Shown here: positions 1,662 through 60,701 of the stretch, piece after piece | How positions within the stretch are numbered: the first letter of the stretch is position 1 | Layout of the letters: each line of letters begins with the position of its first letter | From: Candidatus Gastranaerophilales bacterium | GTDB taxonomy: Bacteria; Cyanobacteriota; Vampirovibrionia; Gastranaerophilales; Gastranaerophilaceae | Assembly (NCBI GenBank): GCA_944325005.1 | Contig: CALUYO010000009.1 | Span: forward strand, 1-60,701 | Reading direction: 5' to 3' | DNA length: 60,701 nucleotides | The notes under the pieces: generated by a model | The model's input: the letters and a program-made list of their open reading frames with translations, nothing else | Databases searched by the model: none | What the model was told of the DNA's origin: nothing | Made by a program: the position numbers and the translations under genes

Positions 1662-2434
1662 CTAATTGTGCATTTCTCTCCACATTTCTCTGGAAGATAT
1701 TCCTCCTTTTTCATAAGAATCTACGCCACATCCTTCTGGTAACAGTTTATAGTTGTTCCCTTCTTTGGAAAAAGCTAATTTGAATAAATCGTGGCCCCAT
1801 TTATTTGGACCTTTTTGGCCGTTAACATCTATAAGCATTGAAATAGGAACATTATCGACTGTATAAGATATTACTAATGAACCGTCATTTAGTACGTAAA
1901 CAAGATTTCGGTTATTGACAGTATTCTTGTTTAATCCTCCGCAGTTCTTATTATTATTTTCAAGTTCGTCTTCTGTGTAATCAGGATTGTCTGTTATAAG
2001 GGTATCCAGTCCTTTATATTGATCTTGCTGTAGACAGCCGTTATCTGCTCCATTCGATGTACAGATTTTTGATATTCGTAAATTCCTTTCTACAGCTTCC
2101 CGAAAATCTTTACAAATATTTTTATCGTTCCATTTACCTTGTACTCTTGTAGTTACATCTATGTGGTAACAATCTGTTATACCGCCAACGTCATAAACAG
2201 ATTTATTGTAAGCTTGATATAATGTGGAATATAGTTTTTTATACTGGTTTTTCAAAACTATTTTTTTATGATGGCTAACTAATGCAGGCATAGTTAATGC
2301 TGCAACAATACCAATAATCCCCAGAGTAATTAAAACTTCAGCAAAAGTAAATGCAAAATGTTTAAAGTTTTCAAACTCCTTGTTTACCTTAGATTTTGCG
2401 GGGGGGGGGCAATCCTAAATGCTTGTCTTACCAT
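1662..2434 (-). CDS. Phase-variable prepilin-like protein, locus 1 (out of frame as assembled)
   Basis: A ribosome site (GGAGG at 2443-2447) and ATG at 2434-2432 open a leader starting MVRQAFRI, followed by a run of ten C on the coding strand. With ten, translation stops after about 16 codons; with eleven (or eight) the frame continues through an A-FTFAEVLITLGII prepilin segment to the stop at 1662, giving about 257 residues. The predicted leader is 28 residues and contains the tract, so it would be removed by prepilin peptidase. The mature part has the DVNGQKGPNKWGHDLF motif shared by the other prepilin-like proteins here, probably a calcium or fold motif as in GspG. A start at 2291 would drop the prepilin helix and is unlikely to be real. 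Confidence 0.75.
2400..2409. repeat. Ten-G homopolymer tract (locus 1)
   Basis: Ten consecutive G on the plus strand (C on the coding strand) sit nine codons after the start of a prepilin-like gene. The length puts the gene one base short of frame. In this AT-rich sequence such a run is very unlikely by chance. Confidence 0.95.
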
Positions 2435-4582: not shown

Positions 4583-5899
4583 ATGATTAATAAAGTTAAT
4601 AATTTTGAGCAGAACACTTTATATAAAAATTTGAAAAAATCTGTTAAACCCCTTGATAAATTTATTCAATCTCAGGAAAATTTATCTCATACAAGATTTA
4701 TTCAGGATACTGTTACAAATTGGGTTCCGAAAGCTTTGTTTGCACGAAGTGTGGCAGATTTTGGAGATATGAGTTTTCTTGAATTTCTGGAGTCAGGAAT
4801 TTTTTACTTTGCCCCTCCTTTAATCGGTGAACATCTTTTGAGAAAAAAACTTTTACCTGCTGTTATTCCTGATAAAACTATAAAAAATCCTGCGTTGACA
4901 GATTCTTTATCAAGTATTTTGAAAAATAAAGAACTTCAAAAAGGAGGACTTGATAAAAGGATTATTGCTGCAAAGACAGCCCTTGTTGTTGGATGTTTAT
5001 GCGTGCCTGTTGCCGAATATATGCTTAGTTTTGCCAAAAATCTTTTTACATTAAAGGTTTTTAAAAAAAGCAACTTTGATAATATAGCAAATCTGGATAA
5101 AACTAATAAAGAGGATGCTGAGCAGCAGAAAAAGGTTGAGCAGAATGCAAAGAAAAATTTGAAAAAAGGAGCTCTGCTTTCTCTCGGAGGTTTGTGGGCT
5201 TCTGTTTTAATTGCCCGTTACGGACATAAATCGGATACTGCTCAAAAATTATTTAAGACAATTTTAGAGCCGGCTGATCTGGTTACAAAATTATTTCCGA
5301 AGATTAAAAACTCAAAATTCGATAAATTTTTGCATGAATATACAAAACTTGATTTTGACAGCAAAGACGGAAAGCTCGCATTGAGCAAAGGTCAGCTTGC
5401 CCTGACTGCAATAAGCGGATTATTCGGTTATAGTGCTGCTGCAAAAGATAGAGGGACACTTGATTTTCTTGAAGTTTGGACACGTGTTCCGCTGGTCGTT
5501 TTCTATACGATTTTTGGAAGCTCATTATTTGATTACGGCTTTAAGAAATATCTTATAAAAAATAATAAATATCCTGATTTACTTCAAAAAACATCAGCAG
5601 GCGATATACATATTCCTTCGCGTAAAGAGCTGCCGGAAATTGCTCAAAGAATTGCAAAAAATAAAAATTTAAATGCACAGGATGTAATGAATAAGCTTGT
5701 TAAGCAAAAAGCAATTATAACAGGCATTCCTTACGCATTTTCTCTATTATTTATGGGATTTACGCTTGCAGGTATAACACGTTTGTGGACACAGTATAGA
5801 TATAATCAGCAGGTTAAAAAAAAGCGTAATGAAACTCCTCAGTCGTTTATAAAACCTTCGTTTACTGCATTTTATAATAATAAGAACGGGATTAATTAA
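4583..5899 (+). CDS. Multi-pass membrane protein, function unknown
   Basis: A 438-residue protein with about five hydrophobic segments (around residues 70-90, 130-160, 200-215, 305-325 and 390-410) separated by Lys-rich loops. The start at 4583 has AAGGAATT in front; an upstream TTG at 4568 lies inside that site. The layout (Lys-rich N-terminus, RS-x-A-rich first helix, charged loops, last helix followed by a short tail) recalls the protein at 9232-10803, so they may be distant paralogues. The stop codon lies in a strong hairpin. I do not recognise the family. Confidence 0.65.
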   Translation: MINKVNNFEQNTLYKNLKKSVKPLDKFIQSQENLSHTRFIQDTVTNWVPKALFARSVADFGDMSFLEFLESGIFYFAPPLIGEHLLRKKLLPAVIPDKTIKNPALTDSLSSILKNKELQKGGLDKRIIAAKTALVVGCLCVPVAEYMLSFAKNLFTLKVFKKSNFDNIANLDKTNKEDAEQQKKVEQNAKKNLKKGALLSLGGLWASVLIARYGHKSDTAQKLFKTILEPADLVTKLFPKIKNSKFDKFLHEYTKLDFDSKDGKLALSKGQLALTAISGLFGYSAAAKDRGTLDFLEVWTRVPLVVFYTIFGSSLFDYGFKKYLIKNNKYPDLLQKTSAGDIHIPSRKELPEIAQRIAKNKNLNAQDVMNKLVKQKAIITGIPYAFSLLFMGFTLAGITRLWTQYRYNQQVKKKRNETPQSFIKPSFTAFYNNKNGIN

Positions 5900-30397: not shown

Positions 30398-31236
30398 TTA
30401 CCATGGATAATCTTTTGATATTTGCCAGCCGTCATACATAATAAGCAGTGCGCACGTATTTGAGGCGCCATTAGCATATTCCCCACAGAATTTAATCATT
30501 TTATCCCTATCATTGTAGACATAATTGTCAGACAGATCTTCATCTGGATTTCCTGCATTTGAGTAGGCCCATCCTGCCGGATAAAAGTGTCTTCCGGTTT
30601 TCATTCTGTATTCTGAGTCTGATAGCTCATAGTCAAGAAAGAAATAAAACCAGTCGCGTCCGGCCCTGTTGGGACCTTTGCTTCCATTAATATCATATAT
30701 CATGTGTATTTGATTATTATTATTAAAGGTTAAAGCACTGCCATCGGCAAGTATAAGTGTAGGATAAGAATCCTGGTTTGTATTAAATTGTTGGTTTGGA
30801 TTTGTGTCATAGATCTTTGCTCCGTTTAAGTATGGAACCAGAGCTGTATTCATCCATTCTATAAGAGCATCATTATCATATCTTTTGTCCGTTGGAGGTT
30901 GTGTCCAGGTATCATTGGCAATAGACATAGTAACGGCCTGATTCATAACAGAGTAAACTTTTTTTAATTTCGCAACTACTTCTGCTTTCTGGTGATTTGC
31001 AATAAGTGCAGGCATTGTTAATGCCGCAACAATACCTATAATTCCAAGTGTAATTAAAACTTCTGCAAGAGTGAATGCGAATTTGTGATTTTTTAAATAG
31101 CGATGTATAACATCATTATAACCTATTTTGAAATTATTGTAAAGTATAAAATCACATAAATTTTTGAAGTACCCAATCCTCTTATTTAATAAGCATTTTG
31201 TGGGGGGGGGGCAATTCTAAATGCTTGTGTTGCCAT
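30398..31236 (-). CDS. Phase-variable prepilin-like protein, locus 2 (out of frame as assembled)
   Basis: AAGGAGG and ATG at 31236-31234 open a leader MATQAFRI, nearly the same as locus 1, followed by ten C on the coding strand. Ten gives a stop five codons on; eleven gives an open frame of about 279 residues through A-FTLAEVLITLGII to the stop at 30398. The predicted leader is unusually long (about 54 residues) because some 100 bases lie between tract and prepilin helix. The mature part has DINGSKGPNRAGRDWFYF and a Trp-rich end (YDGWQISKDYPW). A start at 31015 would lose the pilin helix. Confidence 0.75.
31115..31143 (-). promoter_or_regulatory. Promoter-like sequence inside the locus 2 leader
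   Basis: On the minus strand TTTACA (31143-31138), a 17-base spacer and TATAAT (31120-31115) lie between the C tract and the prepilin helix, a better match than the upstream promoter. A transcript from here would skip the tract, but no start codon keeping the prepilin helix is evident. Confidence 0.4.
31202..31211. repeat. Ten-G homopolymer tract (locus 2)
   Basis: Ten consecutive G on the plus strand, nine codons into the prepilin leader of locus 2 (C on the coding strand). The surrounding leader is homologous to that of locus 1. Confidence 0.95.
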
Positions 31237-48361: not shown

Positions 48362-49086
48362 ATGAGAAAATTATTAAATTTGTTAGCTCGGGGGGGGGGC
48401 GCTTTTTAGCTCTTTGCCTGAATTTTGAAAGTTTATTCAAACCTGCCATGCCGGTTCAAGTGTCACGCTTTGGATTTACTTTGGCTGAAGTGCTTGTAAC
48501 ATTGGGTATTATCGGTGTAGTTTCAGCGATGACAGTGCCGACATTAATGCAAAATCATCAGCGAAAAACTTATGTAACCCAGCTTCATAAGTCCTATAAT
48601 GAGCTCAGTCAGGCGCTTTTGCAATACCAAACTGATAAAAATGCAGTAAATCTAACAGAAGCAGGCCTTACTACTACTGCAGCAATTCAATCTTTTGTAA
48701 AAAATTATTATAAAATTGTGTCAGAATGTGATACAATGACATCACCATGTTTTGCGGACAGTTATAAAAATTTAAATGGCACTGTTGAAAATTCATTTGA
48801 TGCAACGCCGAAATCTTATGTTATAGCAAGCGGAGCAGCTATACGTCCTTTATATAGTAATGCTGACGGCAAAATTTTTAACATGGCCGTTGATATAAAC
48901 GGGCAGCAGGGGCCCAATATTGTCGGCAGAGATTTGTTTTTTATGGGCGTATATAATAACGGAACAATTGACACCTGGGTAAGCGGTAGTTCTGTTCCTT
49001 TAACTGATGAGCAACGTAGTAAGGCTTCAGGAAATTGGTTGCCTTTTGCCAATATATTGAATGACAATTGGGAAATGACATATTAA
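48362..49086 (+). CDS. Phase-variable prepilin-like protein, locus 3 (out of frame as assembled)
   Basis: AAAGGAG and ATG at 48362 open MRKLLNLLA, then a run of ten G; the frame ends at TAG five codons after the run begins. Eleven G would continue through an Arg/Phe-rich leader to G-FTLAEVLVTLGIIGVVSAM and the stop at 49086, about 241 residues with a 38-residue leader. The mature part has DINGQQGPNIVGRDLFF and ends NILNDNWEMTY. An ATG at 48448 is inside the leader and keeps the pilin helix, so weak translation from there is possible but lacks a ribosome site. Confidence 0.75.
48390..48399. repeat. Ten-G homopolymer tract (locus 3)
   Basis: Ten consecutive G on the coding strand, nine codons into the leader of the prepilin gene. 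It is unrelated in flanking sequence to the C tracts of loci 1 and 2, so arose separately. Confidence 0.95.
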
Positions 49087-59393: not shown

Positions 59394-59422
59394 TTGAAAA
59401 AAGTAATAAATTAATATATAAT
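59394..59422 (+). promoter_or_regulatory. Promoter of prepilin locus 4
   Basis: TTGAAA (59394-59399), exactly 17 bases, TATAAT (59417-59422), followed by GGAG (59443-59446) and ATG at 59455. Confidence 0.7.
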
Positions 59423-59454
59423 TAATACTGTAGTAATAATTATGGAGCATAAAA

Positions 59455-60701
59455 ATGAAGAAGATTAATTTCCTTGAATTTATCGGGGGGGGGGCGATTT
59501 AAGGCCTTCCGGACGCGGGTTTTGGTCCTATACACTTGCCGAGATAGTAGTAGTAATGTTGATTATCGCTGTTGTTGTAGCAGTCAGTATCGGTATAACA
59601 AAAGCGAAATTAGATAATATCATCTCCTATACTTATTATTCAGCATATTCGTCCTTACGACAGATATCTACCGAGATGTTAATCAATTGGGATCCAAGCG
59701 ATCCTGAGTATAAACAGGCTTTACATAAGCAGGATTATAATTCTCTTTTAGCCTCTAAATTTCAACAATTTCATCTTAGTTATGCACGTATCAAATCATC
59801 TTTAGCAGATATTTATTATAATTATATATTGTCGTCAAATATGGTAAAAGCAGCATCGGGCGGTTCTTCCACCCATACTTTTTATGCGTGTGCAGGGAGG
59901 AAAAGCACCCATGATTATATAGGTAGATTTGGTGGGCCACTTTATCATAACCCTTATACAGGCGCATGTGAGGATTATCTTGCTTCAGATACATCGCAGA
60001 ATGGTGATGAACCTCTGGAAAAATGCCCTGGAACGATTAATGGTTATCCGACATTTGGTTACCCGGCTCTAAATGGTTGTAATAATCTTTGCGATAGCAA
60101 TGATATTTTTGATCCTGACAGAGTGAAGAATTGTGGATTCATTAGGTCATCGTGGTCATATGATTATACTCCTGGGTGCTATACCAACACTATTGATCTT
60201 ACTAGCATATGGAGTGATATAAACGAATATAAGGGATCTGAAGAACTTACCACAGATCATTCTGGCATGCGTCTTGTAAGCAGTTCATTGTCAGGTAATA
60301 ACTGTTCATATACAATACAATGCCCTAGTGGTAAAGTCTGGACTAATTCTTATTCTAATGTCTGGGCTTGTGAAAATCCTTGTCCGAGCAATTATAGTTA
60401 TGATGAGTCGAGCGGAAGTTGTGTTTGCAGTCGTAAGTGTTATCTAAGTGGTCAGGTATTAAATAAGGACACATGTGAGTGTGAGTATGAATGCTGGGAC
60501 GGCAGTACCGCTAAGTATCAATCACAATGTCCTGACTATGTAACTTGTTGGGACGGTAGTAAAGCTCATAGCCAAAGTGAATGTCCCGCTTGTACAAAAA
60601 GTTGTCCATCCGGCTATAAATTAAACGAGAGCACTTGTAGCTGTGTTGCTGATGGCGGCTCAAGCTGTAATAAGAGCTGCGGCAGTGGTTATACCTTGGA
60701 T
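59455..60701 (+). CDS. Phase-variable Cys-rich prepilin-like protein, locus 4 (out of frame as assembled; cut by window end)
   Basis: ATG at 59455 opens MKKINFLEFI and a run of ten G, and stops at TAA two codons later. Eleven G would give a frame open to the window end, at least 416 residues: a 25-residue leader, S-YTLAEIVVVMLIIAVVVAV pilin helix, a globular part, then a Cys-rich region (from about 60270) with repeated C-P-x-G-Y and C-W-D-G-S units. The Tyr at +1 and Ser at -1 are unusual for prepilin cleavage. The repeats resemble EGF-like or adhesin stalk modules. The open frame is over 1.2 kb without a stop, so it is real coding sequence. Confidence 0.75.
59485..59494. repeat. Ten-G homopolymer tract (locus 4)
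   Basis: Ten consecutive G on the coding strand, ten codons into the leader of the Cys-rich prepilin gene. Confidence 0.95.

Follow-up and report, generated by a model that had tools for sequence, protein, structure and literature searches.

Phase variation has been described mostly in a few pathogens. In Campylobacter, poly-G tracts of about 9-10 nucleotides lie early in reading frames and the frame sets the ON or OFF state; according to one survey, 53% of tracts are 9 long and 26% are 10, strains carry 5-81 phase-variable genes each, and C lies on the coding strand in just 5% (PMC6321876). Neisseria pilC and other contingency genes hold a homopolymer inside a pilus-related gene and switch by frameshift, pilC comprising one or two genes with runs of 9-20 whose protein acts on pilus retraction (PMC5953494, PMC5084427). 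Neisseria also keeps several pilin copies, pilE and pilS, few of them expressed and with patchy similarity (PMC5953494), and in Helicobacter canadensis 29 loci are listed, with runs near the start codon, predicted translational switching and tract-length variability seen in reads (PMC2823697).

Here we describe a G10 run at the start of a prepilin-type gene in an uncultured gut lineage related to Cyanobacteria. The locus is like its Campylobacter counterparts in tract length, early position and frame logic. Unlike in Campylobacter, where 9 is commonest, 88 of 98 runs here are 10 long, a narrower spread; 30 of 86 genes are C-coding, the G strand follows replication, and nearly all loci belong to one gene class and have a common phase (PMC6321876). 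The homopolymer inside a pilus-related gene recalls pilC, but here some 86 prepilin-type genes share mostly one length and phase (PMC5953494, PMC5084427). Several pilin copies, few expressed as assembled and patchily similar, recall pilE/pilS, whereas here each copy has start signals of its own and a run that gates it (PMC5953494). The position near the start codon matches Helicobacter canadensis, although the length variation seen here is among assembled paralogues and species (PMC2823697). A literature search, with most subscription papers and all bioRxiv preprints outside its reach, found no paper on these runs.

A G10 run sets the reading frame of the target gene

The window, that is, the whole stretch of 60,701 nt that was analysed, is all of contig C9, and the 3′ end of the target gene is therefore absent from the assembly. 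It contains four G10 runs; overlapping G8 matches number 12, where shuffling gives a mean of 0.28. The features considered below are:

2400-2434 (-): leader of a pilin gene whose coding strand has C10; OFF as assembled, with 257 codons at 11
31202-31236 (-): leader of a pilin gene whose coding strand has C10; OFF as assembled, with 279 codons at 11
48362-49086 (+): second G-run pilin gene, run at 48390-48399, OFF at G10, 241 codons at 11
59417-59422 (+): possible -10 element (TATAAT), read by eye
59444-59447 (+): Shine-Dalgarno-like GGAG; of the 56 G-coding genes, 50 have GGAGN ahead of the start
59455-59502 (+): open reading frame as assembled (G10), whose OFF product is a 15-residue peptide, then TAA
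59485-59494 (+): G10 run between single Cs, the putative switch
59495-59509 (+): downstream flank CGATTTAAGGCCTTC, CRNTYTNAR-like, of the kind that adjoins runs
59496-60701 (+): ON-frame coding sequence, 402 codons, running off the contig
59529-59588 (+): prepilin-type helix after a cleavage-like site, S|YTLAEI; Pfam N_methyl 14.2 bits, below the curated cut-off of 21.2
59589-60302 (+): variable middle region, no family match, low model confidence
60303-60701 (+): Cys-rich units, one short stretch of which matches Pfam CXCXC; predicted beta-hairpin ladder, block pLDDT up to 91
60612-60701 (+): 90-base repeat that the end of contig C8 shares at 99% identity

From the ATG at 59455-59457, ten codons lead into the run, which at ten Gs shifts the pilin frame out of step, and the ATG frame ends after 15 codons at the TAA at 59500-59502. 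With a run of 11, the same frame stays open for 416 codons up to the window end, and one extra G, or two fewer, opens the full protein frame. Two marks of a translational phase-variable locus are present: a homopolymer of at least 8 near the start codon (G10, 30 bases past the first base of the ATG), and a choice between early stop and full frame that depends on its length. The DNA from 59496 to 60701 has zero stops in this frame, which bears out the G tract and the corrected frame, more than 1.2 kb long and running off the window, that an earlier note had proposed from the sequence alone. Contigs C9 and C8 end in one and the same 90-base repeat (at 5810-5899 of locus L034 for C8), the likely cause of the contig break, and the ends of contigs C2, C5, C6, C10, C12 and C21 have G runs nearby too.

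A prepilin-type helix joined to Cys-rich units

Read in the ON frame, the product consists of a type IV prepilin-like helix (SYTLAEIVVVMLIIAVVVAVSIG), the variable middle and the Cys-rich units. Its N-terminal sequence, WSYTLAEIVVVMLIIAVVVAVSIG, has the parts that define a prepilin-like protein, namely a leader and, after it, Gly, Ala or Ser preceding [FY]TL.E and the hydrophobic helix. While the N_methyl score of the target is below cut-off, that of a relative, L133, is above it (21.6 bits). The opposite holds for CXCXC (PF03128), which passes in the target (18.8 bits against a cut-off of 15, in one 12-residue stretch) and falls below cut-off in L133 (13.6). The units carry the C-P-x-G-Y and C-W-D-G-S patterns first reported in the earlier note. 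That note had also suggested that Ser-Tyr at -1/+1 implied different processing, an idea we set aside, as the residue preceding the Tyr-Thr-Leu-Ala-Glu common to the family can be Gly, Ala or Ser.

The units form a predicted beta-hairpin ladder; the model of the whole window protein has a pLDDT of 48, and that of a relative, L152, a pLDDT of 49. Nothing reached E 0.001 in a Foldseek search of the PDB, which gave weak EGF- and TNFR-like rows only, and a PDB sequence search with the complete paralogue on contig C1 gave no match. The Pfam, NCBIfam, PDB-sequence and Foldseek searches returned the short CXCXC match and none that assigns a function. The adhesin or decoy with ON/OFF control proposed in the earlier note finds its parts in the prepilin-type helix, the Cys-rich repeat body and a frame-setting G run whose off-by-one phase recurs in 81 of 86 pilin-type genes, but no database match assigns an adhesin or decoy role; an adhesin role for the Cys-rich protein is what we infer.

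Most pilin-type genes share one run length and one phase

The genome (2.0 Mb, Gastranaerophilales-type) contains 101 runs of at least 9 Gs. Lengths were read for 98, the other 3 never having been read: 88 are G10, 7 are G11, and one each is 9, 12 and 14 long. Prepilin-type leaders account for most of them, as 86 of the 98 precede a pilin-type motif; the remaining 12 showed no such motif downstream by the test used and are left out of the 86. For scale, a loose threshold finds 119 N_methyl-like sites genome-wide. The run reads as G on the coding strand of 56 of these 86 genes and as C on that of the other 30.

In 81 of the 86, the frame is off by the same one step at length 10 and comes right at 11 (or 8); with a chance of 1/3 per gene, the probability of such agreement is about 1e-32. 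The exceptions are the C1 paralogue (L037), L051, L055, L063 and L082. Median open frames over the 86 genes are 247-248 codons at a run of 11, 15-17 at 10 and 20-23 at 9, and as assembled 79 genes are OFF and 7 ON. Five of the six pilin genes with G11 are in frame, and one pair of leaders (L058 and L059) is identical over the 45 bases before the run, from the Shine-Dalgarno sequence on, and near-identical after it, with G11 in the one and G10 in the other. That most pilin-like genes have the same off-by-one lock suggests one switching scheme for the whole genome. In genomes of this kind, many pilins will be overlooked or cut short by gene callers.

The runs extend beyond pilins, since a GT-D glycosyltransferase gene (L079:775-1725, C5 near 42578; Pfam E 1e-75) has a G10 in frame. 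At L073:1517-1526 (C4 near 199916), a G10 lies early in a 410-codon frame and is out of frame by the usual step; the zinc metallopeptidase matches of that frame are weak and below cut-off.

The G strand follows replication, not gene orientation

Across the 100 listed runs of the genome, the G strand stays the same along every contig but two: on C2, 6 plus-strand runs are followed by 3 on the minus strand, and on C10, 2 minus-strand runs are followed by 1 on the plus strand. Between those runs the gene direction and the GC skew switch as well, from plus to minus near C2:121-123 kb and from minus to plus near C10:34 kb. In a sister species, G007, there are just two G-strand turns among the runs listed, and its 16S fragment is on the G strand. 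The G strand therefore follows replication polarity rather than gene orientation, with G on the leading strand as judged from GC skew, gene direction and one rRNA. Among runs of four to seven Gs, strict polarity is lacking (250 versus 223 at four, 51 versus 33 at five), and the stretches of this genome showed none of 8. Compared with the earlier note, these results add that the switch is genome-wide, OFF at its commonest length, and oriented by replication instead of by gene.

The flanks behave likewise. When the G-coding and C-coding classes are both oriented by their G strand, flank likeness peaks at shifts 0 to 1 (0.32 and 0.46, against at most 0.26 elsewhere), and single Cs border the run in 96-100%. 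In the coding sense this flank lies after the run in one class and before it in the other, so coding alone fails to explain it.

Two candidate explanations were discarded. An anti-ribosome-binding-site hairpin, in which GGAGC upstream of the start would pair with GCTCC downstream of the run, proved too weak: the two are exact complements in 18 of 50 G-coding genes (permutation mean 13.7, p 0.018) and in none of the 30 C-coding genes. Loss of mismatch repair as the cause of the runs is ruled out by MutS and MutL, present in 36 and 38, respectively, of the 39 genomes searched, this one included.

OFF copies of the Cys-rich gene show purifying selection

Paralogues of the target lie on C1 and C8. 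The one on C1 is complete, 817 aa long and in frame at G10; the one at the C8 end has the leader of the C9 target, with G10, and is OFF. Both the C8 and the C9 copy, on separate contigs, keep Shine-Dalgarno sequence, ATG and the whole N-terminus. Relatives were found in 3 of 38 other genomes searched (G004, G007 and G016). An early stop past 60701, or the absence of such a frame in relatives, had been named as grounds for rejecting the extended repeat protein; the length of the C1 paralogue and the relatives in other species point the other way. All members with an assembled end have the same C-terminal domain, which bears an FFF tail and follows a variable number of C-W-D-G-S and C-x-x-G-Y units. 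In G007 and G016 alike, one run-free member with an uninterrupted leader accompanies two G10 members that are out of frame (phases by eye), and in L152 a run of 10 is in frame. With run-free, OFF and in-frame members, the Cys-rich family mixes constant and switchable proteins.

Ka/Ks in the ON frame is 0.40 between the C9 and C8 copies (0.23 over the first 85 codons) and 0.45 between C9 and C1; for two OFF paralogues of G007 it is 0.42, and 0.08 when taken from their last 200 aligned codons. Judged by these ratios, the OFF genes are evidently under purifying selection, and values of 0.08-0.42 on OFF paralogues indicate that the OFF copies are not dead genes. Between C9 and C8, Ks is 0.32 for the first 85 codons and 0.79 for the rest, with the 90-base tail at 99% identity, a patchiness that hints at exchange between copies.

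The run and its phase recur in related species

A pattern of about 9-12 Gs matched in 23 of 24 genomes of the same genus, this genome counted, the exception being G013, and in 2 of 15 genomes of other genera, with 1 or 3 matches. Scanning a collection of species genomes for G10 plus flank gave 72 stretches: 48 from Gastranaerophilales, 2 from Melainabacteria, 4 from Fusobacterium sp. CAG:439 (taken for the lineage of G004), 14 from uncultured bacteria and 4 from other groups, in which no pilin motif with a start was found. The same phase held in 61 of 63 scored runs of 10; 29 of the 94 runs were unscored, and as the pattern was fixed at G10 this result bears on phase, not length.

Length was addressed in a set from sister genomes, picked mostly for odd lengths, in which runs of 9, 10 and 11 obeyed the usual phase rule in 15 of 16 scored genes, L285 breaking it (8 of 24 runs were unscored, 7 lacking a pilin motif and 1 a start). 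Lengths of 9, 10, 11 and 12 all occur among paralogues and species, and G10 is commonest in sister genomes from different projects, with 9, 11 and 12 also called.

A proposed switch and its alternatives

Alongside the frame logic, shared phase, length variants, selection and polarity observed above, we consider reversible slipped-strand phase variation, with OFF as the resting state and ON at G11, the probable explanation, the switching itself being our inference. The G10 would turn the translation of a large, Cys-rich surface protein with a prepilin anchor ON or OFF. Replication slippage would add or remove a G in the run, such that a small share of cells might read the gene at any time; the ON protein would be processed and displayed through the type IV pilin machinery, and may act as a binding or surface-variation module. 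With about 86 pilin-type genes under one switch, nearly all resting OFF at 10 and ON at 11, each cell would display a small, shifting subset of a large pilin repertoire. This lineage seems to hold a very large single-class set, nearly all pilins and resting OFF at one length, which raises the questions of how many pilins a single cell displays and why a homopolymer keeps to one length.

The best rival to slippage is recoding at the run, in which the DNA would stay at G10 and a -1 ribosome slip, or G addition by RNA polymerase, would let every locus always make a little full-length protein. One length (88 of 98 at 10), one phase (81 of 86) and selection on OFF copies suit a fixed slip site, which would work on G10 and C10 alike; but G11 copies need no slip, G9 copies need a different one, and the tracking of replication instead of the gene by the G strand is left unexplained, and we judge this reading unlikely. 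That length is so uniform also counts against plain slippage. Uniform length, flank motif and strand polarity go beyond what plain slippage explains, a gap to which the presence of MutS and MutL adds, leaving room for a dedicated length-setting factor. In a speculative version, to which we give somewhat less credence than to recoding, C-G10-C with its flank would be a dedicated, replication-oriented DNA element at which a genus-specific factor sets or resets the run to ten, and about 100 loci, mostly pilins, would be actively kept OFF and released one G at a time, not by chance slippage alone.

The C8 and C9 copies could be a silent archive donating by recombination to the expressed C1 copy, as pilS does to pilE. 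C1 is indeed in frame at G10 and the other two are not, C9-C8 similarity is patchy, and G007 and G016 each pair one run-free member with two OFF ones (by eye). Silent copies of a pilE/pilS-type archive are, however, truncated and without start signals, whereas C8 and C9 retain theirs together with a full N-terminus, on separate contigs, which makes an archive improbable. We regard it as still less probable that assembly called true runs of 11 as 10: such an error would produce a uniform length, but G10 prevails across projects that also called other lengths, and genes in frame at 10 exist (L037, L082 and L152). Least credible of all is decay, by which the genes would be frameshifted relics; out of frame as assembled they are, but Ka/Ks well under 1 between OFF copies, open frames, a common phase and selection on the ON frame contradict it.

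Leader variants and other loci

In at least 6 run-bearing genes, a Met just ahead of FTLAEV is a possible second start (by eye), and there the run may not be the sole gate. L070, L077, L098, L109 and similar loci have, by eye, a TTGCAA/TATAAT-like promoter after the run and then a Met before FTLAEV, and their pilins may be made regardless of the run. Run-free leaders such as MKKAFTLAEV occurred at 30 pilin loci of this genome and its relatives, where an empty-site search for insertion gave no clean before-and-after pair; of 12 runs scored in that set, 9 were G10 with the usual phase, and of the other three, a G12 and a G10 kept the frame and a C11 broke it. In G000, given as 99.95% complete, no 16S rRNA was found, probably through assembly loss. 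In a second leader type (L133, L173, L178 and L104), a stretch with Cys residues, such as C-x-E-V-S-T-C, immediately precedes the run, and some of the DNA there forms a CTACG..CGTAG inverted repeat (by eye). Finally, one leader of G004 (L290, C70 near 15761) carries two tandem runs, 9 and 10 long.
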